Virus record (IMG/VR): IMGVR_UViG_3300025941_000098
Span: 1-23,347 of that record
DNA from: a virus
Direction: 5' to 3' (one strand)
DNA length: 23,347 nt
The notes under the pieces: model-generated
Seen by the model: only the letters and a program-made list of their open reading frames with translations
What the model was told of the DNA's origin: nothing
Database searches by the model: none
Made by a program: the position numbers and the translations under genes
Shown: piece by piece, positions 1 through 21,151 of the stretch
Layout of the letters: each line of letters starts with the position of its first letter
How positions within the stretch are numbered: position 1 is the first letter of the stretch

Positions 1-502
1 TGGTCTGGATCGAGTTAGCCGTTGCAGCAGTCGAGTTCTGCCCGGTTATCAGCAGCGTGATCGCGGCAGTATCGGTGATGGCAAGGTTGCTGTTGAAACC
101 GTTAGACCCGGAATTAGAGGCCAGATTATGAAACGATGTCCATGCCTGGGTATTGGTCCCGGTCTTCCACAGCCACTCATCGATATACCAGGTCGTCTGG
201 CCTACGATGTTGGTATTGAATGTGTCGCTGTTTGACCCGCCGAACTTGACCCGCACCGACTTGGTATCAGTTGATGCGGCGTTCGTCCCCCTGGCGATAA
301 TGTGGATCGCGTCGCCGACATTGACGAACGTCCCGGCCGGTATGGTCACCGTGAACAGTGTGTCCTCGGTGGTATCTGCGCCATTACCGACGACGGCTAC
401 CTGAGACGAGATCAGCGTCGTCACCGATGCCGCGCCACCCGTGACGGTCTGCGCCCGCGCCAACAACGGCACAAGCAGCAGAAGTGCCAGCAACCCCCTC
501 AC
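1..502 (-). CDS. Secreted beta-rich phage fibre-type protein (3' end outside the window)
   Basis: This partial gene begins with GTG at 502, overlapping the TGA of the upstream gene as GTGA, and stays open to base 1, giving about 167 residues. The N-terminus (MRGLLALLLLVPLLARAQ) is a textbook Sec signal peptide: one Arg, a Leu-rich core and cleavage after ARA. The mature part has alternating small, polar and hydrophobic residues typical of beta structure. It includes a stretch around VGNGADTTEDTLFTV, then IPAGTF, then VKFGGSN, a pattern I associate with receptor-binding or fibre-tip domains of tailed phages, though no function can be assigned. It is the last visible gene of the fibre cassette and shares the signal-peptide oddity of its two upstream neighbours. 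The reading frame is firm; the product name is inference. Confidence 0.75.
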   Translation of the reverse strand, partial: MRGLLALLLLVPLLARAQTVTGGAASVTTLISSQVAVVGNGADTTEDTLFTVTIPAGTFVNVGDAIHIIARGTNAASTDTKSVRVKFGGSNSDTFNTNIVGQTTWYIDEWLWKTGTNTQAWTSFHNLASNSGSNGFNSNLAITDTAAITLLITGQNSTAATANSIQT

Positions 503-726
503 GGTTTGGGTGCTTCCGGCTTGGTCTCCGTCGAGGCAACCTGCTTGTTCAGGTCGTCAACGTGGCGTTGGAGAGTGATCGCCTGCGTCTGCCACTGTAG
601 CTGTTCGCCGGTCAGCTTTAGGATCGTCTGCTGACACGCTTCGACGTTCGGTGCCAACGGCGGGGGCTGTTGCTGCGCCATAGCAGCGAAGGGGAGGAGG
701 CCGGCAAGGAATGCGATGCGCTTCAT
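499..726 (-). CDS. Small secreted coiled-coil protein (75 aa)
   Basis: The 75-residue product starts with a signal peptide (MKRIAFLAGLLPFAAMA, cleavage before QQQ). A short Pro/Gln linker follows, then a heptad-like helix from about residue 32 to 65 (ILKLTGEQLQWQ.. to VDDLNKQVA), and a Lys/Pro tail. The only cysteine, near residue 31, starts the helix. An AGGAG ribosome site at 732-736 overlaps the stop of the upstream fibre gene and lies about 5 bases from the ATG, so the start is well supported. The gene is coupled to the next one by GTGA. Size, signal peptide and coiled coil would also fit a spanin-like or periplasmic accessory protein. I see no lipobox, so o-spanin is unlikely. The family is not recognised. 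Confidence 0.8.
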   Translation of the reverse strand: MKRIAFLAGLLPFAAMAQQQPPPLAPNVEACQQTILKLTGEQLQWQTQAITLQRHVDDLNKQVASTETKPEAPKP

Positions 727-734
727 GTGAACTC

Positions 735-3700
735 CTAGTTTCCGAAGCAGGCGTAGTCGAAGATATGGCCGCTACTGGACGTGTTAACGATGGTGATGGC
801 GGCCAGCGTGTAGCTGTAGGAGAAGGCCGCATCAGGCGTTTGGGACCCGACTTTGCAGTGGTTCCATGACCGATAGGCTGTGGCGAACGTGACGACACAG
901 CCCGTGGTCGTGGTGCCCTCTGTGACAACGCCGTGCGCCATGTTGGAATGGCTCTCAACGGTCGGCGATCCGGTGCCACAGGCGGATAGCACCGGCACCG
1001 CCGTCGAGACATTGGTCCAGGTGAGCAGGCCGCCGATCTGGATCAGGTTGGTTGTGGTAGATGTCGGCAGCGCGCCGTTGCCTGCGGTGGTAGATAGAAC
1101 GATGTTATTGCCCCCAGCCGTGGCCAGGGTCTGGCAGGCATTCACACCAAGGCAGAGGTTGTTGCCCGATGTGGTAATATCCTTGCCGGCATTGACGCCG
1201 AGCAGGGTATTCGCGTTCGCCGTTGTAAGGGCGATGCCAGCTCCTTTGCCCACTGCGACGTTGTTGGTCGTGCCGTGGGCAACCAGCATGGATTGAAAGC
1301 CGATAGCGACATTCGTCGTATCAGTAGACATCGCCGCGCCCGCGCTGCTGCCGATAATCACGTTCTGAGAGAACGCCTGGCTTACGTCCGCCGCTACACT
1401 GTTTCCAATCAGGACGTTGTTGGATGGAGTCGTGATCCCCGGATTGCCCATGATCCCGCGTCCGACGAGCGTATTCGTGCTCGGGTTGCTGGCTGCCAAT
1501 CGGGTGATCGTGTTGGTGCATGTGCCGGTGCAGCTCACGGCGAGGTCGATCAGCGAGCCTGTGGTCTGGGTCCCGAGTTGGTGCAGCGCGATATAGTTGA
1601 CGCCCTGGCTGTCGGTATAAAGGGTCGTCAGAGAGGATGGGCTGACATAGGTGCTCGGGTTTCCGCTGACCGCCGGGATCGTATAAACGAGCGTCCCGAT
1701 AGTCGCGTTGATCGCCGCCCAGAAGTGCTGTGCGAGCAGCAATGCCGTCGTGTCACCGGCAACGACCGTGTAATTAACCGTCAGCGGTGATCCTGTGACC
1801 AGGCCGCTCGCCGACGAATAGGTGACGGTATAGACCGAACCGACGCTTGGCGTGCCGGTGCCGAGCATGATCGTGCCGGCGCTGCCGTGTAGGTTGCCGT
1901 TACCCACCGACGTATCGTTGACCATGTGACCGTCTGCGGCAGCGCCAGAACCGATGATCGTCGCGCCGGCACAGTCCGTCGTGTCGCGCATCACGTCAGC
2001 ACCGACCGCCGTACAGGCAATCGGCGCGGTGTCCTGGCCGCCTGTGTGCTCTCCGATGTACACGTTGGCATGGGCATTGACCGCATAGGGCAGCGACAGA
2101 GGACCGATCGCCACGCTCTCCGACGTTCCGTCAGTCTCCGATCCCAGAGCCCAGTGCCCGATGGCAATGTGGCCTTCGCCGGATGGCAGGTTGATACCTG
2201 CATACTTCCCCATGATAACGGCGCTGAGGCCGGACGTCTGGTTGTTGAACCGTATCCACGGGACACCGGCAACGCTGAACACGGCAGGGCTGGGAAGCAT
2301 GTTTATGGCGGTAGCCGCGACGGTATTCGCTGCCACGTTGCCGAGTGCTGGAGGCGAGGAGAAACTACTGCCGCCGCCGCTGCCTGCGGGGCATGTCCAT
2401 ACGCCGCTGCCGGTCGAGTAGCAAAGCAACTGATTTGCTGTGTCAACGACGAACGCCGCCTTTCCTAGCGCTCCAACTACGCCCGTAGGGGCTCCAGCCA
2501 TCGTAGGAATTTGGAGGAACCCGGAGGTAGCATTCGTCGCCAGCGCAGAACCGCTGCCAACAATCACGTTCTGGCCGGTATCACCTAGTTGCAGCAGGCC
2601 AGTCGGTGCCGTGGTGATGTTCAGGGTGGCGTTATCCAGGCCGGTGCCGCCCTTTACCGCGACGCCAGCAGGATTTGCCGCGGTTGGGAAGCCGCTATGC
2701 CCGGCAACGGCGGTTACCGTGGCGATCGCTGTGCCACTGAGCGTGGCAACGTTCCATAGACCACCGTACGGGTCCCATATCTGGTCTCCGACCTTATAGC
2801 CCGAGCCGCCACTGGCCACAGCGGCGGACACTTCTGTAAAGCCAGGCACAGATAGCTTGGCGCCACCCGAGATGTAGGTCAGCGACGCCGGACCGATCGT
2901 TTGCTGGCCCTGGCCGTCCACTGTCCAACCGGTGCTGCGCCATGCGAAATTGAGGAAATTCACACCAAACAGGTCCATGCCATAACCGGCGGTCGCCTGC
3001 CATGGATGGGTAACCCCTGCACCGAAAACAGGCATTGGCCGCATGATGGCGCTGGTCGTCAATGTGGTATCAATGGGCCAATCCTGGCCAAGCTCGCCAA
3101 TTTGCATGAGGACGGTGTTGCCGCCCGTGCCTGGGGCAATCGAACCGGCAGATGAGAAGGAGATTGCATAGTCCTGGATCGAACCATGCCCAGCGTCCGC
3201 AACGCCATTGTGGAATGTGGTGTTTCCCTTCGAAAGAGACGTGCTGGTGGCGGTAAGGCGCAGATCGTTTTCCTGGACCAAGACAACGCGGAAAGCGATG
3301 CCTGAGGTGCCGGCATTGTTGCCGGCGCGGGTGTCAAAGTTTACCGATGAGGCCCGACCAGATGGCGCCGCCGGATTGGTGCTTTCCCCCACGTCGTAGT
3401 GCATGAATGCCAGCAGGTTGAACGGCGCGGTGTCCAGACCATCGGTAGCCGCCGCTAACTTGTTGTAGGTCAGGACCAGGTTAACACGATCCCCATTCGC
3501 TCCTGCGTTGTATGCGTGCGAGATATTAAGATCGGCGGTCCCTGGAAGGGCTCGCGCGAAATTCGCGGTGTCGGCAACATTGATCATGTTAAGGTTCGGC
3601 GTGCCTGAGCCGGTGTCTACGGTCCCGGTCCAGGTGACATTCTGAAAAATGCCCATCGGGTTGATCGGTCCAGAACCCATGGAGGTTCCGGCGGCCAGGG

Positions 3701-4151
3701 TCCGGGTGCCGGTCTGGTAGAATGTGCCCGTATTCTGGACCTGGCCCTTGAACAGATAGGTGGGCAGTCCGAACGTGCCGTTGTTGTTGAACGTGACGTT
3801 TCCGTTTGAGCGCGTGAAGCGCATTATTTCGCCGAAAGGCGTTCCGTCGTCGTGGTAGCCGAACAGGCGAAGGTTGCTGCCGGTATCGCCGGTCCCGGTT
3901 TCGGTATCGGTCAGCCCGAATTGCAGCCTATTTTTCGAGGCCGTCTGCCAGAAAAGTGGACGGCCGTTGTTGTTCTGGCCGTTCAGAAGAAGGCTCGCGC
4001 CGGCCGTATCCGTGCCGACTGTGGTGTTGCCGTTCAGCGACGATTTTCCAAGCACCGTGTGGTCCTGGTTCGTCGGCGAGGGATAGTGGCCCTGCGCCCA
4101 CGCGGACGCCGCACTAAGCGTGAAGAATGCCGCAAGAAGGAGTCTGCGCAT
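735..4151 (-). CDS. Large tail fibre / adhesin-like protein with N-terminal signal peptide
   Basis: This is the largest gene in the window (1138 aa) and probably the receptor-binding fibre. Residues 1-19 (MRRLLLAAFFTLSAASAWA) form a complete Sec signal peptide, which is unusual for a fibre. Residues about 20-115 resemble a phage fibre N-terminal beta domain (ASLLLNGQNN.., EIMRFTRSNGNVTF). A GGSGYKVGD segment occurs near residue 446, and a small Cys-containing segment near 575-590. Residues about 655-760 and 890-1010 carry repeats of the trimeric-autotransporter head type (NVLIGNSV, NVIIGSSAG, NVAIGFQS, NVAVGKGAG, NTLLGVNAG), which fold as left-handed parallel beta rolls. The C-terminus (about 1058-1138) has several Cys and ends in YACFGN. 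Ribosome-site similarity before the ATG is weak (GCGAAAG). The gene is separated from the other virion genes by two plus-strand genes, so it probably has its own promoter. Confidence 0.85.
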   Translation of the reverse strand: MRRLLLAAFFTLSAASAWAQGHYPSPTNQDHTVLGKSSLNGNTTVGTDTAGASLLLNGQNNNGRPLFWQTASKNRLQFGLTDTETGTGDTGSNLRLFGYHDDGTPFGEIMRFTRSNGNVTFNNNGTFGLPTYLFKGQVQNTGTFYQTGTRTLAAGTSMGSGPINPMGIFQNVTWTGTVDTGSGTPNLNMINVADTANFARALPGTADLNISHAYNAGANGDRVNLVLTYNKLAAATDGLDTAPFNLLAFMHYDVGESTNPAAPSGRASSVNFDTRAGNNAGTSGIAFRVVLVQENDLRLTATSTSLSKGNTTFHNGVADAGHGSIQDYAISFSSAGSIAPGTGGNTVLMQIGELGQDWPIDTTLTTSAIMRPMPVFGAGVTHPWQATAGYGMDLFGVNFLNFAWRSTGWTVDGQGQQTIGPASLTYISGGAKLSVPGFTEVSAAVASGGSGYKVGDQIWDPYGGLWNVATLSGTAIATVTAVAGHSGFPTAANPAGVAVKGGTGLDNATLNITTAPTGLLQLGDTGQNVIVGSGSALATNATSGFLQIPTMAGAPTGVVGALGKAAFVVDTANQLLCYSTGSGVWTCPAGSGGGSSFSSPPALGNVAANTVAATAINMLPSPAVFSVAGVPWIRFNNQTSGLSAVIMGKYAGINLPSGEGHIAIGHWALGSETDGTSESVAIGPLSLPYAVNAHANVYIGEHTGGQDTAPIACTAVGADVMRDTTDCAGATIIGSGAAADGHMVNDTSVGNGNLHGSAGTIMLGTGTPSVGSVYTVTYSSASGLVTGSPLTVNYTVVAGDTTALLLAQHFWAAINATIGTLVYTIPAVSGNPSTYVSPSSLTTLYTDSQGVNYIALHQLGTQTTGSLIDLAVSCTGTCTNTITRLAASNPSTNTLVGRGIMGNPGITTPSNNVLIGNSVAADVSQAFSQNVIIGSSAGAAMSTDTTNVAIGFQSMLVAHGTTNNVAVGKGAGIALTTANANTLLGVNAGKDITTSGNNLCLGVNACQTLATAGGNNIVLSTTAGNGALPTSTTTNLIQIGGLLTWTNVSTAVPVLSACGTGSPTVESHSNMAHGVVTEGTTTTGCVVTFATAYRSWNHCKVGSQTPDAAFSYSYTLAAITIVNTSSSGHIFDYACFGN

Positions 4152-4274: not shown

Positions 4275-4502
4275 ATGAAAACCCTGATCGCACTCGCATT
4301 TGCCGCCGCAACCCTGACTGCGGCGAGCGCCCAAACCTGGACGCAACAGCAGCAGCCCTTTACGGTCTTTCAGCCCAACCAGCCGGTGCAGTGGCCGGAG
4401 CCGATGCAAGGGCCGGTGCAGATGCCGCCGCAGTTGCAGCCCCAGCCCCAGCCGTTCGTGACGTGCTATCCGATCGGCGGGAGAATTGTGAGCTGCCAGT
4501 GA
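4275..4502 (+). CDS. Small secreted Pro/Gln-rich protein (plus strand)
   Basis: The 75-aa product has a signal peptide (MKTLIALAFAAATLTAASA, cleavage before QTW), then a Gln- and Pro-rich stretch with PQLQPQPQP, and a C-terminus carrying two Cys (VTCYPIGGRIVSCQ) that could form a disulfide after export. A GGAGG at 4264-4268 sits 6 bases before this ATG. This supports the internal start rather than a 216-aa reading frame that stays open upstream to 3852 and lies antisense to the fibre gene. It overlaps the next plus-strand gene by GTGA. It lies on the strand opposite to every other virion gene, pointing to an inserted accessory (moron-like) unit or a lysis/exclusion function. No family is recognised. 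Confidence 0.7.
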   Translation: MKTLIALAFAAATLTAASAQTWTQQQQPFTVFQPNQPVQWPEPMQGPVQMPPQLQPQPQPFVTCYPIGGRIVSCQ

Positions 4503-9458: not shown

Positions 9459-9803
9459 TCAGTCCTCCAATTCCAAGACGTGCTCGTCTGCCACCGCCGG
9501 CTCATCATTTTCCAGATGATCCGCGTTGTGGATGCACGCCAGCGCCACGTCGTCGGTGAGCGTCAGGAAGCTGTGCAGCGTCCCAGCTGGGATACGGACC
9601 ACAGCCGGCGCGCAAAAATCCCCGATCATCTCCTCGCCATGCCATGCCCGGACGGAACCTTGCAGTATGGCGGTCAGGTGGTCGAAGTGGTGCCCATGCT
9701 GAGGGAGTAGCGTGCCGGCGTCAGGCACCCGGTACACCTTATAGTAAATCCCCGCATAGATTGATACGCTGACGGTCTCCGGCTGGCGTTCCGCGCGTTT
9801 CAT
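9459..9803 (-). CDS. Small cupin-fold protein
   Basis: A 114-aa single-domain cupin. The first cupin motif is visible around residues 36-49 (QHGHHFDHLTAILQG, with His36, His38, His39 and His42 as candidate metal ligands). The second motif is around 72-79 (PAGTLHSF, His77). The protein is the right size for one beta-barrel and carries no second domain. Cupins of this kind bind a metal and can be isomerases, dioxygenases or non-enzymatic binders; the substrate cannot be read from the sequence. The ATG overlaps the stop of the HNH gene as ATGA. Before the HNH gene entered, it would have been next to the oxygenase gene, so the two may work together. Confidence 0.8.
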   Translation of the reverse strand: MKRAERQPETVSVSIYAGIYYKVYRVPDAGTLLPQHGHHFDHLTAILQGSVRAWHGEEMIGDFCAPAVVRIPAGTLHSFLTLTDDVALACIHNADHLENDEPAVADEHVLELED

Positions 9804-10306
9804 TCTGTCCTCGCGTATGGCCCATGGACACGCTTAGCAGCCTTACCATAAGCCGCGTGCGCCTCAGAGGCAGAGGCGAACCGTCCAAGGCACGTCTGCT
9901 TTCCTTTGAACTTTATCCTCGCGCGCCACAGTCCCGTGTCAGCGCATAGGGAAACTCCCTTATAACCGCTTCGATTCGAAGGCGCTGCGCCTCTGTTAGC
10001 GCAGTTCTGCGAACGGGATGCGGCTCTAAGGTTAGCCCATCGATTGTCCCGGACATCTCCGTTGATGTGGTCCATGTCGTATTTTGGCCAGCGTCCTGTG
10101 ACCATAAGATAAATTACCCGATGGACGAGGTAGGGCTGTCCATACAGAGAAATCTGAATATACCGACTGGTCGCGCCCATCATACGTACGGGACGTTCGG
10201 GGTGGCAGCGCCCTCCAGCGTCGATAAATGCGCGGCGCGTCAGCGCGCCTGTATCAGGGTTGTAGGTAAGCCTGGATCGCACATCCTCCGCGGTTAGCCT
10301 ACTCAC
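9800..10306 (-). CDS. HNH homing endonuclease with AP2 DNA-binding domain
   Basis: A 168-aa protein with the standard free-standing homing-endonuclease architecture. An HNH nuclease core lies at about residues 58-105 (YLVHRVIYLMVTG with His62, then YDMDHINGDVRDNRWANLR with Asp79-His80 and conserved Asn82, Asn88 and Asn92). An AP2-type DNA-binding domain follows at about 113-163 (SGYKGVS, LWRARIKFKGK, LGRFASASEAHAAY). These enzymes cut intron-less or insertion-free alleles and so spread their own gene. The GTG start overlaps the 3' end of the oxygenase gene by 8 bases, and its stop overlaps the cupin start by ATGA, so it is embedded without visible damage to either neighbour. It is best read as a selfish insertion in the virion operon. 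Confidence 0.9.
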   Translation of the reverse strand: MSRLTAEDVRSRLTYNPDTGALTRRAFIDAGGRCHPERPVRMMGATSRYIQISLYGQPYLVHRVIYLMVTGRWPKYDMDHINGDVRDNRWANLRAASRSQNCANRGAAPSNRSGYKGVSLCADTGLWRARIKFKGKQTCLGRFASASEAHAAYGKAAKRVHGPYARTE

Positions 10307-10841
10307 TGCGCATACTCACAATGACCACGATACGATCGCTATCGCCATCGTTTGCGATGCTATGCATCAGCAGATTGTCAAAAGTAAATATCGTCCCGGC
10401 ATCAAACCGCATGGTCTCATCCTCACAACGCACTAACGCAGTGCCAGCGAGTGTGATATGAGCCTTACAGTTATAAAAACAAGGCGCCCAATTGCCCGCG
10501 TCAGAGTGCGGCAATATCTCGCCGCCTGGCGGTAACTTGGTGATCAGGATAGACCCGAGTTCCACTGCCGCAACCCGGTGCATTAGCGCGAACACCATCG
10601 GCCGCAGAGATGGCAGCTCATACCATGCCGGCCAGAACACGTTGCGATGCTCCAGGCGCCGCGCCTCCATCGTAAGCAGATGCTCCGACATGTAGCGCAC
10701 GGTGATGTCGGTCATCGCCCCATGTGGCGTGCCTGGGTAAAGCCGCCGTTCCGGGTTCCGATCCCACAGATGCGAAGCTCGGTTCAGTTCGGCCAGCACC
10801 GGTACGCAATCAACCCCGCCTGCCAACTGCACAAACCGCAT
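10299..10841 (-). CDS. 2OG-Fe(II) oxygenase, aspartyl/asparaginyl beta-hydroxylase-like
   Basis: A 180-aa protein whose C-terminal half shows the double-stranded beta-helix oxygenase pattern. The HxD iron ligands are His112 and Asp114 (GGEILPHSDAG). The distal ligand is His160 in FDNLLMHSIAND, and Arg170 is positioned to bind 2-oxoglutarate (GDSDRIVVIV). An Arg about 10 residues after the second His fits the aspartyl/asparaginyl hydroxylase group better than classical prolyl hydroxylases, which use Lys. The start is ATG at 10841, sharing one base with the upstream TAA. A longer in-frame extension to 11066 runs antisense to codons of the upstream gene and is rejected. The substrate is unknown: a virion protein, a host protein or a small molecule are all possible. 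Confidence 0.8.
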   Translation of the reverse strand: MRFVQLAGGVDCVPVLAELNRASHLWDRNPERRLYPGTPHGAMTDITVRYMSEHLLTMEARRLEHRNVFWPAWYELPSLRPMVFALMHRVAAVELGSILITKLPPGGEILPHSDAGNWAPCFYNCKAHITLAGTALVRCEDETMRFDAGTIFTFDNLLMHSIANDGDSDRIVVIVSMRSE

Positions 10842-11455
10842 TACCGCACCCGCCTCGCTCCCACGAACCCACCAGCCGCCACCACGCCGCTGGCGAACGT
10901 CGCCAGCGCCCCGAGATACACCGTGGTCGTCGCTGCCAGGCTGAACCGCCGCGGCGACAGCGCCAGCACCGTCTGTGTCGCGTAGAACCCGTTCGTCGCG
11001 TGCCGCATCGAGGCGTAGCCGGGCGACGGCTGCGACGGCTCGGAGGCAGATGCGTTGTTCACCCACGCGGCGATGATCGCCATGTTGCCGGCCGAACTCG
11101 TGAAATGGACCACCCCGGCCGCGTCCCAGTCACCTGCCGTGAGGGAAATGCTGCACACGTTGGTTGCTGCAGAAAACCCCAGGCCGACGCTCGAAATCGC
11201 CGCGCTGGCCGAGATGTATTCGCCTTTGTCGCCCGCCGCCGCGTCGCTGCCGTCCGTGACGCCGTGACTGAGTGCCGGCAGACCAGCCTTGATGTCATCC
11301 ACCACGCCGCGCAGCACCGCGAGCTGGTCGGCCATCTGCTGGAAATGGTCGAGCCAGGCACCCGTAGGGGCGCCCGTGTCCTTGTTGACGACCGGCGCCA
11401 CCAGAGGCGGCTGAATGCGCGGCGTCGATAGCGTGCTGACCGTCGTGATCGCCAT
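10841..11455 (-). CDS. Tail structural protein in tail-needle position
   Basis: A 204-aa protein. Residues about 25-62 form a helix with coiled-coil character (GAWLDHFQQMADQLAVLRGVVDDI). The rest is a beta domain starting at KGEYISASAAI, with NVCSISLTAGDWDAAGVVHF in the middle. That last pattern is common in C-terminal domains of phage tail and fibre proteins. A coiled coil followed by a knob, directly after the gp10-like gene, is where P22-like phages carry the tail needle (gp26), so that role is possible but unproven. The start overlaps the upstream stop as TGATG. Confidence 0.7.
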   Translation of the reverse strand: MAITTVSTLSTPRIQPPLVAPVVNKDTGAPTGAWLDHFQQMADQLAVLRGVVDDIKAGLPALSHGVTDGSDAAAGDKGEYISASAAISSVGLGFSAATNVCSISLTAGDWDAAGVVHFTSSAGNMAIIAAWVNNASASEPSQPSPGYASMRHATNGFYATQTVLALSPRRFSLAATTTVYLGALATFASGVVAAGGFVGARRVR

Positions 11456-12933
11456 CAGGACGAGCCACCGGAAATGTCCGCGTCAATGGCGTACAGCGTC
11501 GTGGCATCGAGCGAGGAGAGCCGGAACACGCGCTGCCGGAAGGAGCCGAGCCGCGTCGCCACCATTCGCGTCCGCGTCTGGCCGAACGCCGCCGCCGGGA
11601 TCGCCCTCGGGCCACCGTTCCAGTTGATCCCGCCGTCGTCCGACCACTCCAGCGTCATGGACGACGTAGACCGCGCCGTGCCGACCTCCATCTCGACCTC
11701 GAGCCTCGAGCAGAAGGCACGCCTGGTGCCGGCCCAGATCGGCGGCAGCGTGGCCTGATGAAGCACCGGAACGCCCGCATCAGTCGTCACCGCCGGGTCG
11801 GCCAAATACACATTCCCCGCCGTCTTGTCGCCGACATACACCAGGTTTTCCACGCTCCCTGTGCAGTTGCCGCGCCACGGGCCGACGCCATCCGCCTGGC
11901 TCGACCGCTCGTGCCAGAATTGCGTGTTGCAGTCGTAGACCAGCGTCCGGTCGTTCTCGATGGTCAGGACATAGAAGGAATGCCCGGCCTGCATGTAGGC
12001 CATGCCCTGCGCCTTAAGCGATGCGCTGATCCCATAGGACGCGATGATGGCCTCGATGCCGTGCGTCGAGATGCGCTTCGGCGTGTAGCCGACGCTGCGA
12101 AAGACAATGCCGTCCTTGTCTAACCAAAACACCGAGCCATCGATCTGCGCAATAGACTTCGGCGTGGCAACGCCATACTCGATCACCCCGCCGGTTTGGC
12201 GCCGCCGGAACGGGAAATCGGCATCGCCGGACTCATACCAGATTTCGAACCCAGACCTTCCAGCAAGCCACAGCTCGCCGCCGTGCGTGATGGCGCGCAG
12301 CATGATGTTGGACCCCGCCTCCAGGCTCGCGAAGTCGAGCGCATCGAACGCAGTCGGGTCATCGATCTTCGACACGAAGAAGCTCTCGCCATACCCTTCC
12401 TGCGAAAAGATGAAGTACTGGCCCAGGTAGGTGACCGAGTTTGCGCCGGGGAAGTCGCCGCCGATCTGATTGGCCGTCGAGCCGACCGCGTGAGCCGCTG
12501 TAAAGGCATTCGGAGGCACGCAGATCACCACGGCGCTCGGCGAGACAGCAATCGTCGCCGCCATGATCAGATCAGGATTGACGCCACCAGCTGGCGAGGC
12601 AACGCCGACCGGCCCCATGTCCCAGATCGTGCCCGAATAGCCATATGCGTGATTGCCCGACACGAAATATCCGACGCCGGGCATGTCCAAATTCATCGCA
12701 TGGATCGGGCCGGTTCCGAACGCTCCGTTGAACTGATCTGGGAGCCATAGCCCCGGCGCCGGCACCAGCGCGGCCTGCGTCCTCGCATCGGACGGCTGCT
12801 CTTCCGCCATCCAGTTGAGCAGATGCTTCGACGAAAGAGGTTTCGACGGGTGCTGGTAGCTTTCCAGCGGGAACGGAATGCGCCGCATCCCGCCAGCAGC
12901 CGGAGCAGCCTGCTGTGCCTGCGCTCCGCTCAT
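11455..12933 (-). CDS. Packaged DNA stabilisation / tail protein, P22 gp10-like
   Basis: A 492-aa protein matching the P22 gp10 group in length (gp10 is about 470 aa) and overall pattern. It has an N-terminal segment IPFPLESYQHPS..NWMAEEQ, then beta-propeller-like repeats with motifs such as GELWLAGRSGFEIWYESGD, QIDGSVFWLDKDG and YVLTIENDRTLVYDC, followed by FWHERSS. In P22, gp10 binds under gp4 and helps close the portal and attach the tailspikes. The start is taken at ATG 12933, which overlaps the stop of a 56-aa gene as ATGA. The frame stays open to 13185, but that extension is Arg/Gly/Ala-rich antisense-like sequence and is not accepted. Confidence 0.8.
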   Translation of the reverse strand: MSGAQAQQAAPAAGGMRRIPFPLESYQHPSKPLSSKHLLNWMAEEQPSDARTQAALVPAPGLWLPDQFNGAFGTGPIHAMNLDMPGVGYFVSGNHAYGYSGTIWDMGPVGVASPAGGVNPDLIMAATIAVSPSAVVICVPPNAFTAAHAVGSTANQIGGDFPGANSVTYLGQYFIFSQEGYGESFFVSKIDDPTAFDALDFASLEAGSNIMLRAITHGGELWLAGRSGFEIWYESGDADFPFRRRQTGGVIEYGVATPKSIAQIDGSVFWLDKDGIVFRSVGYTPKRISTHGIEAIIASYGISASLKAQGMAYMQAGHSFYVLTIENDRTLVYDCNTQFWHERSSQADGVGPWRGNCTGSVENLVYVGDKTAGNVYLADPAVTTDAGVPVLHQATLPPIWAGTRRAFCSRLEVEMEVGTARSTSSMTLEWSDDGGINWNGGPRAIPAAAFGQTRTRMVATRLGSFRQRVFRLSSLDATTLYAIDADISGGSS

Positions 12934-13100
12934 GTGGGGCCAGGAACCGGGGGCGCCTGTACCGGCACCACCACCATGCTGCCAGCCGCAATCGCCGCCA
13001 GAGCATCGCGCACCGCGACGAACGCCGGCACCTCGGCCCCCTGGATGCTCATGCGCTGCAAGAACTGCAATGCAATCGCCGCTAACTGTCGGTCCATCAT
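12930..13100 (-). CDS. Small hypothetical protein (56 aa)
   Basis: A short gene filling the gap between the fibre-like gene and the gp10-like gene. The product begins MMDRQLAAIALQF, continues as a helix with RMSIQGAEVPAFVAV and RDALAAIAAGSM, and ends in a Pro/Val tail (VVVPVQAPPVPGPT). The start shares a base with the upstream TGA (TGATG), and the stop overlaps the downstream start (ATGA). Coupling at both ends is the main evidence that it is real. An alternative start is the second ATG at 13097. It could be a small chaperone or assembly factor for one of its neighbours, but no family is recognised. Confidence 0.65.
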   Translation of the reverse strand: MMDRQLAAIALQFLQRMSIQGAEVPAFVAVRDALAAIAAGSMVVVPVQAPPVPGPT

Positions 13101-14107
13101 CACACGTTGTAATACGGGAACTTAAAGCTAACCCCGCCGATCTTCTGCACCAGATAGCCGGCCACCTGGGCAGGCGGGGCACCATTCGCGCCGATCGTCG
13201 CAGAAGCCGCCGTTGTCGGCGTTACATAGTTAATCGTGCCGTCGTGGCCGATGACGATACCGGGCGTCACATAATCACCCGAGTGGTTGATCGAAGCATG
13301 AACCACCCCAGCGCCGTCGATCACCGATATCGCAAGCCGCGTGCCATCGAATGCACCCATCTGCTGCAATATCAGGTTCGGGACTCCCACCGGCGCCGCC
13401 ATGCGGACCAAAGCCCCCGCGCCCGCAGGTGATGCTGTAGTGCTGCCATCGATAAAGATGCCATACGACGTGGCCGCCTGCGGGTGCACATAGATTCCAT
13501 GTTGGAACGGCTGCGCTCCCAACAGCACCGCCAGCCCCATCAGGCTCGGAAAATTGCCATAGGCCGCAAGTTGTAAGGCAATCGTGCAGAACTCGGTGGT
13601 TCCGAATGAGTTGAGCGGCGGTGTTGCCCCTGTAGGGGTGCCGGCGAAATTGAAGGAGTTTAACTCGTTCGTCGCCACACCAGGCACACCGACCGTTGAC
13701 AGATCGGCCCTACCGAACACCCCGAACACGGTATTTCCGGCAGTCGTCAAAGAACCATACCCGGTGATCCCACACGGGAACGCCAGCGTCGATGGCGGGA
13801 GGCTGTTGATCGTCTGACCAATCAGCGCGTTCTGCGCCCCCGTGGCAGACGCAGCCAGCATCGGAGTGCCGAAGTCTGGCAGTATAGCAGAACCAACGAG
13901 AATCGGCCCCGAAACCGTGCCGCCGGTCAGATGTAGATAGGCTGCATCCGTCGTGACCTTGACGTAATCCAGGACCGCCGTCGCCGCCACTCTGCCGGTT
14001 CCAGCCCGCTCCAGCACGAACTGGGACGCATCGGAGATCGGACCAACGTCCGGCAGATCTGGGATCGTTTCGGTCGGAATCGGAAATGCGGTGATCGTGC
14101 CCATCAT
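13100..14107 (-). CDS. Fibre-like structural protein (335 aa)
   Basis: The N-terminal part (ISDASQFVLERAGTGRVAATAVLDYV, given here only as the GTGR-centred motif around residues 25-50) is typical of phage fibre and fibre-adaptor proteins. The remainder is Gly/Ala/Thr/Val-rich beta sequence with HLTGGTVSGPILVG and YVTPGIVIGHDGTINYVTP, resembling a fibre shaft and tip. It ends FPYYNV. The ATG start overlaps the previous stop as ATGA; a second ATG follows immediately. It lies between an Ig/beta-type protein and the gp10-like gene, so a head-proximal or tail-proximal appendage is plausible. A particular receptor role cannot be read. Confidence 0.7.
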   Translation of the reverse strand: MMGTITAFPIPTETIPDLPDVGPISDASQFVLERAGTGRVAATAVLDYVKVTTDAAYLHLTGGTVSGPILVGSAILPDFGTPMLAASATGAQNALIGQTINSLPPSTLAFPCGITGYGSLTTAGNTVFGVFGRADLSTVGVPGVATNELNSFNFAGTPTGATPPLNSFGTTEFCTIALQLAAYGNFPSLMGLAVLLGAQPFQHGIYVHPQAATSYGIFIDGSTTASPAGAGALVRMAAPVGVPNLILQQMGAFDGTRLAISVIDGAGVVHASINHSGDYVTPGIVIGHDGTINYVTPTTAASATIGANGAPPAQVAGYLVQKIGGVSFKFPYYNV

Positions 14108-15965: not shown

Positions 15966-17093
15966 TTAAGCGTCGCCAACAGCCGTGGTAACGATCGTAA
16001 ATACACCGTTATCAACCGGCGTGGTCGTGTCCACAGTGGCGTGCTTACCAAAACGCAGCTTCTGCACGCCACGGATTTCCATTATGCCAGCGCCATGCTG
16101 GAATCCGTAGTCGCGATTGTTGGTCCTCGCCTGGGTCTTTTGTGCCCATGCGATGCCCACCGCTTGCGCCCCGCAGAGGAACGTGAACGCCGTATCAAGC
16201 GTCGCGTGCGCGTTGGTTCCGCCTCCCGCATACACCGGAATCTCGGGTATTTCCCGCACAACAATGCCATCCCATAGCAGGTCGCCACCGGCAAACAGCG
16301 GATTGCTATCGCCGCGCGTCTGTGCGTACTGATTGGCCGCAAGAACGTTGGCGTCCTTACGGAAGTCACGAAAAACGAGGCTGGGCATCAGAGCCACATA
16401 CCATTCCTCGCCGTTTTCGAGGCGGATCGGCCGGATATGGGGGCTTGCGGTACGAGCGCGACGCTTGGCCAAAGACAGCGTGGCCGCGGTCATCAGGTCG
16501 GCGGTGTTGTCGAGCGTCGCCATAGAAGTTGACCAATCGTTGGACACCGAGTTCGCGACTACTGCCCCGAATTGAATGCGGTCAGCGTTGTTGGTCAGCC
16601 ACGAATTGCACTGAGCGTCAGTGACGGCGCCGAGTGCGCCGCTCGTGCTGCCGTCAATGGTGATTGCACCGAGGGCCGCGATAATGTCCGCACGGATTTT
16701 TTCGACCGCCCAGTCCATCAGGCCGTCGCGACCGGCCTGGAGCAGATCGATGACGGATTTTTGCTCGTCCCAGTCGGTGACCGCGATGGCGTGGCGAATG
16801 ACATCGACAGTGACCTTGAGAGAACGAGAGTTTAACTGCTCCTCTTGGCCTTCCAGCGTCGTGTTTCCGGTGACGCCTGCTGCCGTCAGTCGCCGGACAG
16901 CTCCGAACACGACCGAATCGCCAGGCTTGCGCGTCAGTTCGTCGCGAAGCTGGATCATAGACGCAGCCGTAGTGCCAAAGTATCTGGTGAATTGGTTCCC
17001 GCGGATGTATTCGCGGAAGAAGTCAGTGGACCATTGCGATGGCGTAAGACCGGCGCGTGCGGTCGTCACCACCATGTCAGCCGTGGCGGTCAT
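15966..17093 (-). CDS. Major capsid protein, N4-gp56 family
   Basis: The 375-aa length and motifs fit the N4-gp56-type HK97-fold coat family: REYIRGNQFTRYFG near residue 28, RKPGDSVVFGAVRRLT near 55, GVTGNTTLEGQEEQLN near 73, VIRHAIAV near 98, and the helix DLLQAGRDGLMDWAVEKIR near 116-134. This is the subunit of the capsid shell. The ATG has an AGGA ribosome site at 17103-17106 and is preceded by the longest minus-strand non-coding gap of the window, which carries a three-copy repeat. The gene follows the scaffold, as expected for this phage type. A 22-residue helix at 121-142 is echoed in a small protein encoded upstream. Confidence 0.9.
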   Translation of the reverse strand: MTATADMVVTTARAGLTPSQWSTDFFREYIRGNQFTRYFGTTAASMIQLRDELTRKPGDSVVFGAVRRLTAAGVTGNTTLEGQEEQLNSRSLKVTVDVIRHAIAVTDWDEQKSVIDLLQAGRDGLMDWAVEKIRADIIAALGAITIDGSTSGALGAVTDAQCNSWLTNNADRIQFGAVVANSVSNDWSTSMATLDNTADLMTAATLSLAKRRARTASPHIRPIRLENGEEWYVALMPSLVFRDFRKDANVLAANQYAQTRGDSNPLFAGGDLLWDGIVVREIPEIPVYAGGGTNAHATLDTAFTFLCGAQAVGIAWAQKTQARTNNRDYGFQHGAGIMEIRGVQKLRFGKHATVDTTTPVDNGVFTIVTTAVGDA

Positions 17094-18096: not shown

Positions 18097-18861
18097 TTAC
18101 CACTCCCTACCGGAGAACGCCTGGTTGGTTGTTGCCCCGAAGATGCTCAGTGCCGCGCCTGGTGCGACGGCCGAGGCCGGACTGCCGCACGCGAACTGTG
18201 CGCCGGCCGGAACCTTGAACGACGGGCGAGACGCCGCAGCAGTGCCCTGGTCCGAAATCCATAGATCGCCGGTCGAGAGGTTCTGCACCACGCAACCGCG
18301 GCGGTTCGGGAAGGCAGCCGCCAGCGCCTGCGCCACGCCTCCCGAGGCGATCACGCCGGAGATATCGGCCATCGTCACGGTGTTCTGGGCCTGCGCAGGC
18401 AGCAGCATTAGCAACAGCGCCGCGAGCGCTCCGCCGAAGATTTTGCCGGCGGTCACGGCCACGAAAATGCCTGTCTTGCCCGCCGCCAGGCCGACGCCGG
18501 TATCCGTAGCCACGCCGTTGATGGTCGCAGTGCCAGCGCCGAATACCTGAGCAGTCGCCGTGCCGGAGTTGGCGATGACACACACTTGGCCCGGCGTCAT
18601 TGACGGCAGCAGCACCGAGTCTTTGGTAGTCGCGACCACCGATACATTATTCACACCGGCAGTGAGCGGCGTGCCGTCTGCGTGCGTGCCGCTGGCCTTC
18701 GCTGTGATCGTATCGGCGGCACTGAGCGAAAGAGGGCCGGACAGCACGACGTGACCCAGATTGGTGGTCGAGGCCGCGAGCGTCGCTGCGTCTACCGCAT
18801 CCAGCGAGGCAGCGTAGGCAACCTCCTGCGTCGTGGCAAATGGGGCAGTCTGTCTGGTCAT
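18097..18861 (-). CDS. Head decoration-type protein, apparent fusion with an internal signal-peptide-like segment
   Basis: A 254-aa protein made of two beta domains. Residues 1-140 look like a phage head/decoration domain (VCVIANSGTATAQVFGAGTATINGV, quoted only for its VIANSG and ATINGVA cores), ending in VAVTAGKIFGG. Residues 160-254 form a second beta domain with NRRGCVVQNLSTGDLWISDQG and PSFKVPAGAQF, ending in GATTNQAFSGREW, a pattern frequent in small phage capsid or tail-associated proteins. Between them, residues 141-158 (GALAALLLMLLPAQA) look exactly like the core and AxA cleavage site of a Sec signal peptide. This suggests two fused genes, or an internal start at GTG 18456 (residue 136). 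The ATG overlaps the upstream stop as ATGA. Confidence 0.75.
   Translation of the reverse strand: MTRQTAPFATTQEVAYAASLDAVDAATLAASTTNLGHVVLSGPLSLSAADTITAKASGTHADGTPLTAGVNNVSVVATTKDSVLLPSMTPGQVCVIANSGTATAQVFGAGTATINGVATDTGVGLAAGKTGIFVAVTAGKIFGGALAALLLMLLPAQAQNTVTMADISGVIASGGVAQALAAAFPNRRGCVVQNLSTGDLWISDQGTAAASRPSFKVPAGAQFACGSPASAVAPGAALSIFGATTNQAFSGREW
18103..18107 (-). promoter_or_regulatory. Ribosome binding site deciding the scaffold start
   Basis: GGGAG on the minus strand, overlapping the last codons of the decoration gene. The 8-base spacing to GTG 18094 is normal, while GTG 18103 overlaps it. Confidence 0.6.
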
Positions 18862-19088
18862 GCCGGCGATCCTAAAGCAGCAATGATGTCAGTCCGCAAC
18901 TTGTCCATGGCCCAATTGCGCAGCATGGCCCTGCCCTCCATAACAAGCGCATAAGATGGAGACGCTTCCAATCGCCTGCGTTGTTCTTCGCGCCGAGCTT
19001 CACGCCGCACATCGTTCCGCATCCGCTCATCCCGCTTGCGCCGCCGGACCGTCTTGCGCCTAACGGCATCCGCTAGACTGGCGCTCAT
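18858..19088 (-). CDS. Small very basic protein with a capsid-like C-terminal helix (76 aa)
   Basis: Residues 1-47 are extremely Arg-rich (RRKTVRRRKRDERMRND, ARREEQRRRLEAS), suited to binding DNA or an acidic partner. The C-terminal helix (GRAMLRNWAMDKLRTDIIAALG at residues 52-73, of which I cite the GR, WA and DIIAALG cores) matches residues 121-142 of the major capsid protein at 14 of 22 positions. The start overlaps the portal stop as ATGA, and its stop overlaps the decoration gene start. It could be a capsid-interacting or packaging-related protein; no family is known to me. Confidence 0.75.
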   Translation of the reverse strand: MSASLADAVRRKTVRRRKRDERMRNDVRREARREEQRRRLEASPSYALVMEGRAMLRNWAMDKLRTDIIAALGSPA

Positions 19089-21151
19089 TTGCTCGCCTTC
19101 GGTGGTGGAGGCTGCATGGCTTGGTGTGCCTGAGCCATCTTGTGCAGCACCGTCGCGGCATTGACGTGCGCCGCCGTCTGCTTCTGCCTCAGGTCGGCCA
19201 TGTCGTGCGCGGCCTGCATGGCTGGATGCATCTGCGGCTCTACCGTGCCCGGTGCTGATGGCGGATCGGGCGCCACGTTCGGCTGGCCGAATGGCGGTGC
19301 GCTGAACTCGCTGTGGATGTTGTGTATCCTCTCCGCCGCGAGAGCGCCGTCTGCCGCCGCCTTGGCCTGCGTCGCCTTGACTTGCGCCTCGGCGTGCGCC
19401 TGCACCAGCGGGGCCTGCGCGGCCTGCTGCTGCTGCATCTGCTGCTGGTGCGCTTTCATCCGATCAAGCAGGTCCGCCTTGTTGCGCAGCGAGGACGCAG
19501 CGATCAGCACATCGCCCGGTATCAATCCAGGCTGGACGCTGGCTAGCTGCACGAGCGTCTGGAATGTTTCAGCTTCCATAGTCGGCAGGTTCTGGCCTTC
19601 CTCTACGGTAATATCCACGTCAAGGTCGGTGATGTCGTTCTCAATACGGATGACCTGCTGCAAGCGCGGATCGCCCGGCACAATGCCCATACTCTGCATG
19701 GCAATGGCACGCTGCGGCGGCGGCATAGCCGCCAGTTCGTCCTGCACCGTCACCGGCCGGTTGATGCCGACCCACTTTGTATCGTTCAGGCTGTCCGTCA
19801 CCCGGACCCACTTGCCGCCCGTCCAGTACTCCCGCGCTGCCATCCAGCACATTTCATAAACGCGCCTCGACCACATGCGCAACGAGTCCGCCAGCGGTTC
19901 ATTCTGCACCGCGCCGCCCGCCTGCTGCGCCAGGATCGCACGTCCGCTTAGCTCGCGCGGATCAGTGCCCGACATCGCAGCGTTAGGGCCGGATAGCTGC
20001 AGCTCTTGCGTAGCGTGTTGCAGCAACTGGAACTGCCCGGTTGCCAACTCCCCGCCAGGCAGCACTTCGAACTTCATCCCAGGCGTGACTTCGACATAAC
20101 CATCCGGCCGCGCAATCTCACGCCGCGCCTTGTCCACATCCTTGACCGCGCCTTGCTCGGCGATGACCTGATGGACGCTTAGAAGATGCAGCGACTTGCT
20201 GCGGCGCTTGTTGATCTCATCCTGTAGGCTGATCCATCCGCGCACCGCACCGTATCGCCAGTTGTCGCGCGTGATATACGCCGATTGAAGGATCAGGCTA
20301 CATGCACTCTTGCCGCGCCGATCCTTGAACGGCGACGGGCGCGGATCATCGACAATGCCGCCCTTGGTGAATGTCGCAGACCACCACGTTCCCTGCTCAT
20401 TCCAGTGGCACTGAACAACGCGCGTTCGCTCGCGCCGGCTGTCGAGCCATGTCGCGTGCGACGGGCGGTCGTCATACGTGCCGCCCATCTGGCCGGAGAA
20501 TGCCGCCTCGATCTCGTCAATGGCGTGCGGATACATCTCCTCAAGCTGGTCGCGATCCATCCAGATCACGATGCCGAGGTAGCGCGCATCGGAGAAGTCG
20601 ATGGCACGTGAGTGCGGGTCCCACCACAGCCGTTCCCACGAGACGTGCGTCAGCCGAATATCCGCGCCGCCCTTGCCGTCGTCCTCCAGGCTGCATTCAA
20701 TACCGCCAGCGCCCTCGATCAGCATGTTCTCGAACACGGCGCTGCGCAGCACGGGGAAGTTGTTATCGTCGTCGATGTAGCGCAGAGCCTGCGTTGCAGC
20801 TGTGGCGCGGTCTTCCTCTTGCGGCGTGCGTGGGAAAGCCTTGGGATCGGTGCGCGCCTTACGCTCCAGGCCACACAGCATCGCCACCTTGTCGTGGATT
20901 TTGTTGATGACCACGGCGGGCTGACCACGTAGACGCAGCGCGTCCAATTCGGCCTTGGTCCACTGCGCGTGATCGTAGTATTCGCGGTCTCGCTCGCTCA
21001 GTTCGCGCGGGTTGGTCGATGCGCGTTCGGCTTCCTCGAACCAGCGGACAAGCCGCTCGTGCAGCGCGATCATGTCGCCGGGGTAGACGTCCACGATTGG
21101 CCGCTGCGGCTGCGCGCTGTAGTCCGATAGCTGGGTGACGGATGCGCTCAC
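19085..21151 (-). CDS. Portal protein, P22-like
   Basis: The 688-aa length (P22 portal is 725) and motifs fit P22-type portals. These are an N-terminal helical region ending SERDREYYDHAQW, RGQPAVVINKI with DKVAMLCG and KARTDPKAFPRTP, IEGAGGIECSLEDDGKGG, the clip/stem pattern WERLWWDPHSRAIDFSDARYLG and VIWMDRDQLEE, and a Gln/Ala-rich C-terminal barrel region (QQQMQQQQAAQAP). The protein forms the dodecameric DNA channel at the head vertex and is the docking site of the terminase. The start overlaps the ART-like gene stop as ATGA. Confidence 0.92.
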   Translation of the reverse strand: MSASVTQLSDYSAQPQRPIVDVYPGDMIALHERLVRWFEEAERASTNPRELSERDREYYDHAQWTKAELDALRLRGQPAVVINKIHDKVAMLCGLERKARTDPKAFPRTPQEEDRATAATQALRYIDDDNNFPVLRSAVFENMLIEGAGGIECSLEDDGKGGADIRLTHVSWERLWWDPHSRAIDFSDARYLGIVIWMDRDQLEEMYPHAIDEIEAAFSGQMGGTYDDRPSHATWLDSRRERTRVVQCHWNEQGTWWSATFTKGGIVDDPRPSPFKDRRGKSACSLILQSAYITRDNWRYGAVRGWISLQDEINKRRSKSLHLLSVHQVIAEQGAVKDVDKARREIARPDGYVEVTPGMKFEVLPGGELATGQFQLLQHATQELQLSGPNAAMSGTDPRELSGRAILAQQAGGAVQNEPLADSLRMWSRRVYEMCWMAAREYWTGGKWVRVTDSLNDTKWVGINRPVTVQDELAAMPPPQRAIAMQSMGIVPGDPRLQQVIRIENDITDLDVDITVEEGQNLPTMEAETFQTLVQLASVQPGLIPGDVLIAASSLRNKADLLDRMKAHQQQMQQQQAAQAPLVQAHAEAQVKATQAKAAADGALAAERIHNIHSEFSAPPFGQPNVAPDPPSAPGTVEPQMHPAMQAAHDMADLRQKQTAAHVNAATVLHKMAQAHQAMQPPPPKASK

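Follow-up and report, generated by a model that had tools for sequence, protein, structure and literature searches.

Tail fibers are textbook products of the cytoplasm, and the phage depolymerases known to us are anchored to the virion and lack a signal peptide. Llp of phage T5 is a small lipoprotein that masks the receptor. Signals or membrane segments are common in phage lysis proteins, and phage lambda encodes, between its tail genes, the signal-bearing outer-membrane protein Lom, which is exported to the host envelope (PMC12309495). A description of tail-fiber domains with Sec signals was not found in the open-license literature that we searched, which is not proof of absence.

Here, we describe such domains in a 23.3-kb virus fragment (IMGVR_UViG_3300025941_000098; hereafter "the window," i.e., the whole stretch of 23,347 nucleotides that was analyzed) and in its relatives (loci with L numbers below). 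As with Lom, phage genes with an export signal lie in a tail gene region; however, Lom is a beta-barrel membrane protein, whereas the proteins here have tail-fiber, tailspike and decoration domains. The function that we propose, receptor blocking on the infected cell and on debris, is that of Llp, although the window proteins carry fiber domains and no lipobox: when a lipobox Cys (as in Llp- or Bor-type lipoproteins) was sought after the predicted cleavage sites, Q or W stood there in all of them. Links to tailspike depolymerases are a pectate-lyase family match and a beta-sandwich that is similar to one portion of the KP34 depolymerase model, but here a signal is found in place of the virion anchor.

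Gp13 of Sinorhizobium phage phiM5 has the same decoration-type domain (46–49% identical over the matched part) but neither a signal nor a Cys; its gene adjoins the major capsid gene, and, according to its annotation, the protein was detected in the proteome of the phage particle. Acetobacter phage phiAX1, a prophage of Acetobacter sp. ATCC 21760 that was found through its Hc3 gene and that its authors predicted to be incomplete (PMC8566455), has a known culturable host and carries two signal-bearing genes in the same slot between coat and Hc3, and both products have an even number of mature Cys: gene 440 (fiber-like, four Cys) and gene 450 (a GH66 glycosyl hydrolase, six Cys). The annotated start of 450 lies 105 bp too late (L223:9388-9493, LC644973), thereby dropping the in-frame signal, and the GH66 Pfam domain starts upstream of it. 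No sequence match was seen between 440/450 and the window cassette.

The signal-bearing cassette and its phage

The window belongs to a P22-like podovirus, with P22-type portal, coat and gp10 head-closure genes in a P22-like order (Table 1). Hc3 is followed by two proteins where P22 has its ejection proteins, and then by the fiber region. Genome contigs searched with portal and Hc3 gave no matching genome, and no fiber homologues were found among isolated phages; the relatives are uncultured contigs. An aspartyl/asparaginyl beta-hydroxylase gene, close to collagen-like GPPGPP fiber anchors and near a cupin-like gene, is kept in the structural clusters of relatives (L057:12239-12754, L104:12007-12561, L095:12185-12601; E 9e-11 to 6e-14) and might encode a modifier of fiber proteins.

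Table 1. Features of the window, with predicted signal cleavage (slash) where a signal was called.
Feature	Position	Strand	Predicted cleavage	Remarks
P0001, signal-bearing beta-sandwich protein	2-502	-	MRGLLALLLLVPLLARA/QTV	GTG start; gene open at the window edge
P0002, signal-bearing, 75 aa	499-726	-	MKRIAFLAGLLPFAAMA/QQQ	QQQPPP after the signal, then probable coiled coil
P0003, signal-bearing fiber-like protein, 1138 aa	735-4151	-	MRRLLLAAFFTLSAASA/WAQ or ...AWA/Q	homologue with signal in L101
P0004, signal-bearing P/Q-rich protein, 75 aa, 2 Cys	4275-4502	+	MKTLIALAFAAATLTAASA/QTW	opposite strand
P0005, membrane protein, 87 aa	4499-4762	+		overlaps P0004 by 4 bp
Cupin-like gene	9459-9803			
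HNH endonuclease	9800-10306	-		phrog_99; within structural cluster
Aspartyl/asparaginyl beta-hydroxylase	10299-10844	-		PF05118
Head-closure Hc3, P22 gp10 type	11455-12921	-		phrog_578; start re-set; query for finding relatives
Signal-less fiber candidate	13100-14107	-		virion-anchor N-terminus of the clade (DLPDVGPISDASQFVLERAGTGR)
P22-type coat	15966-17093	-		phrog_334
Decoration-type domain behind signal, 2 conserved Cys	18097-18462	-	MAVTAGKIFGGALAALLLMLLPAQA/Q	internal GTG of ORF 18097-18861; phrog_22789
P22-type portal	19085-21151	-		PF16510

The initial annotation had read complete Sec signals with AxA-type sites at the start of three consecutive minus-strand genes (P0003, P0002, and P0001) and a further signal on the plus-strand gene nearby; all four calls hold, coordinates of the three included, and the plus-strand signal is of the Sec/signal-peptidase-I type. 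A fifth signal, that of the decoration-type domain, was absent from that annotation. By Sec/SPase I criteria, the window signals are regular, with a positive n-region, a hydrophobic core and an AxA site at the N-terminus. Signals were called with a purpose-written, rule-based predictor that passes five of six known E. coli signals (PhoA falls just under the threshold) and calls none of 318 core virion proteins of the relatives (0/88 portal, 0/133 coat, 0/97 Hc3); false calls were made for members of one gp4-like family. Shuffled N-termini pass at rates of 0.2–0.8% for three of four proteins and of 7.8% for the very hydrophobic P0001. Core proteins and shuffles together rule out chance signals, and mis-annotated starts are unlikely because homologues retain the signal at the same position, with sequences that diverge yet stay signal-like. 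Other high-scoring stretches (e.g., at plus-strand 19317 and 20645, antisense to the portal gene) seem to be chance hits. We regard it as very probable that these N-termini function as Sec/SPase I signals and that the proteins are exported.

P0003 had been taken for a virion tail fiber, a role that its architecture does not favor, as it lacks the N-terminal virion anchor of the clade and consists of a signal and then a passenger, while a separate anchored candidate is present (Table 1). The several Cys that had been pointed out at its C-terminus are indeed there, 12 in number and all in the C-terminal half; the core (residues 1–576) has none, whereas the signal-less relatives L134–L136 have six. 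YadA-like repeats can be discerned by eye near the C-terminus. A C-terminal YadA-type membrane anchor, as in trimeric autotransporter adhesins, was not detected in P0003 (no Pfam match at E <= 0.1), nor was a PEP-CTERM motif, the mark of exosortase substrates. An AlphaFold model of residues 1–600 reached a pLDDT of 35.

P0002 is a possible fiber partner: small QQPPP proteins also lie directly 3' of signal-bearing fibers in L058 and L186, and by this usual gene place the type would serve in fiber assembly. A model of the P0001 family resembles C-terminal domains of tailspikes and depolymerases, with a clear neighborhood only in a viral structure library and a weak match against the PDB. L101 has the whole cassette in a row—fiber, coiled-coil, beta-sandwich and decoration genes, each beginning with a signal. 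Its fiber is 36% identical to residues 1–589 of P0003, signal included, its small protein continues from the signal into QQPP and a coiled-coil-like stretch, and its P0001 homologue (L101:6090-6644) is interrupted by a stop codon in frame shortly downstream of the signal. The cassette is, as far as this arrangement tells, inherited as a unit. On the strand opposite to the structural genes, the P0004/P0005 pair has a P0005 homologue in L133 (16253-16558 (-), 48% identical) and a similarly arranged counterpart in L059 (12077-12591 (-)); pairs of this type are possibly involved in lysis or envelope functions.

Signals, anchors and cysteines across related loci

Searches with portal, Hc3, coat, fiber and decoration sequences gave more than 200 related loci. 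When the rule-based prediction was extended to the virion genes of these phages, as had been proposed, signals recurred on tail-fiber, tailspike, lectin and decoration-type domains within the structural gene cluster, with the core proteins free of them as given above. Examples are, in L104, a tailspike-like protein that contains a pectate-lyase domain (E 7e-13), in L065, a protein with classic tail-fiber repeats (E 1e-27), and other long fiber-like proteins (L058, L074, L095, L169, L174, and L186); LamG-like lectins, beta-sandwich proteins and PEP-CTERM-like proteins are further signal-bearing types on the structural strand. A signal-bearing gene between coat and Hc3 is found in only 10 of 36 non-redundant contigs covering that region (~28%) and is therefore accessory. 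PEP-CTERM-like C-termini occur on signal-bearing proteins near portal or coat genes (L015:11928-12476, L018:15161-15709, L080:888-1436, L094:3324-3872, L022:200-919, L028:6525-7199 (-), L158, L179, and L207), with weak NCBIfam matches where scanned, which suggests surface proteins destined for a host exosortase pathway.

The passenger domains occur in two ways: behind a virion-anchor domain (of the DMPDLG, xYSDYPG or collagen-like type in this clade), or behind a signal and without an anchor. Specifically, the L074 passenger shares 40% identity with the body of an anchored L095 protein across 418 aa, signal-bearing L104 and L065 proteins match anchored proteins of L020 and L016, respectively, and parts of P0003 match anchored proteins of L118 and L092. 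The same passenger also appears in L074 and L169, which differ in the signal and in the first module that precede it. In several genomes, a short anchor protein ending in a "WxNGGxLxV" cap is directly followed by a signal-bearing passenger; among nine capped anchors found by pattern, six have a signal-bearing gene next. The signal-bearing gene often overlaps the short anchor protein by 4–34 bp. Shared passengers and short capped anchors thus indicate that the signal stands where the virion anchor would otherwise be. In the window, L058, L065, L080, L094, L095, L111, and L169, the same locus also encodes an anchored fiber. Homologues lacking the signal, which the initial annotation had named as evidence against export, do exist, but since several carry a virion anchor instead, they account for the signal and do not speak against it.

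In the decoration-type family, the same two Cys are invariant in all signal-bearing members, which fall into eight lineages (the window group, L101, L146, L147, L170, L195/199, L155-158/174, and L200/203/213), whereas all four signal-less relatives (phiM5 gp13, L164, L180, and L181, the last three fused to collagen-like anchors) have no Cys (eight vs. four lineages by manual grouping; Fisher p = 0.002). This covariation suggests that export is real and is the strongest evidence for it. In the window, the signal-like segment lies mid-ORF between two domains, as an in-frame fusion that recurs in the closest relatives, and reflects either translation from an internal GTG or a fusion that spans the membrane. 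A search of solved structures with the family returned mostly designed beta-propellers and was not meaningful. Tat-like twin-arginine N-termini (e.g., SRRSLLLAG, RRRDLLAG) are seen on LamG-like fiber proteins encoded immediately downstream of the decoration gene (L157:5646-6935, L158:7595-8650, L195:915-2285, L199:2226-3308, L200:2072-2725, and L213:1384-2166).

Mature-chain Cys counts were even in 19 and odd in five signal-bearing families, against 57:56 in a control of signal-less structural genes (Fisher p = 0.008), where the unit is the cluster with any Cys before curation and the control includes a few signal-bearing proteins whose signal the predictor overlooked. Curation (a lipoprotein and a membrane anchor dropped, one site re-cut, the phiAX1 proteins and one more L169 fiber added) gave 22:3, a value obtained after seeing the data and secondary to the raw count; the result weakens when mis-called members are kept. 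P0002, L195/L199 and one L169 fiber have odd counts. Fiber homologue pairs show no parity effect (12 Cys in P0003, six in signal-less L134), and signal-bearing fibers have no clearly higher density of Cys. At the level of sequence, the informative cysteine evidence is confined to parity and the decoration pair. The earlier proposal of periplasmic maturation with disulfides is supported by these comparisons, in which signal and Cys pair covary and counts are mostly even. The fiber itself shows no clear effect of this kind.

Readings of the probably exported proteins

We favor exported, disulfide-stabilized domains of fiber or tailspike type that act on host surface polymers, and we give the whole chain, surface action included, an even chance of being right. 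The N-termini would work as Sec/SPase I signals, and the exported proteins would fold in the oxidizing periplasm, a step that the cysteine evidence supports, where P0002-type proteins may help. Passenger domains have two forms in this clade, as their sequences show: an anchored one, cytoplasmic and presumably virion-borne, and an exported one with a signal and no anchor. The latter would be made late from the structural operon and work outside the cytoplasm on a host surface polysaccharide or receptor. We infer this action because the exported set consists of lectin, hydrolase and tailspike folds, because P0001 resembles depolymerases and tailspikes, and because exported forms have no anchor while anchored fibers exist in the same genomes. 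By masking receptors or trimming the polymer, the proteins would prevent the loss of progeny to the dying cell or to its debris, and would shut out superinfecting phages; crossing of the outer membrane before lysis might use host type II secretion.

A part of the virion would account equally well for the gene slot, for the frequent short overlap with anchor genes and for the fact that the signal-less phiM5 relative is a virion protein. Under the main alternative, which we think rather unlikely, the fiber module is Sec-exported, trimerized and disulfide-bonded in the periplasm, and docked on the short anchor at or after lysis. Signal-bearing fibers do occupy the slot of anchored fibers, often overlapping a short capped anchor gene (six of nine such anchors are followed by a signal-bearing gene), and the signal-less decoration relative is a particle protein. 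Late addition of fibers is feasible, given that tailless P22 heads take up tailspikes in vitro. The virion would then be built in two compartments, with the cytoplasm supplying head and anchor and the periplasm the disulfide-bonded fiber module, to be joined only at lysis, a picture that we hold as tentatively as the alternative itself. However, the exported fibers were not found to share any one anchor or docking domain, some capped anchors have no signal-bearing gene beside them, separate anchored fibers are encoded in the same genomes, and enzymes such as the phiAX1 GH66 hydrolase suit a free, secreted role.

Host-derived secreted cargo (morons) without a phage-specific role, to which the PEP-CTERM-like exported proteins of the clade and the patchy distribution might point, is improbable, as the domains are those of phage tail fibers and particles, shared with anchored phage proteins, and the genes are part of the structural operon, run in its direction and overlap at their starts. 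Highly improbable, to our mind, is that the hydrophobic N-termini belong to virion proteins of the cytoplasm, as membrane anchors that stay uncleaved or as structural segments that are buried. The decoration-domain segment of the window, internal to a longer ORF, is what such segments might look like, but AxA-Q sites, divergent sequences with conserved signal properties, absence from the core virion proteins and covariation with Cys all argue for signals instead.

Repeated exchange of anchor for signal, with a Cys pair gained in at least one domain, implies either that phages of this clade export receptor-binding or polymer-degrading domains before lysis, as we favor, or that part of their particle matures in the periplasm; either would, to our knowledge, be without precedent. 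Covariation of signal and Cys also provides a cheap sequence test for exported phage proteins.
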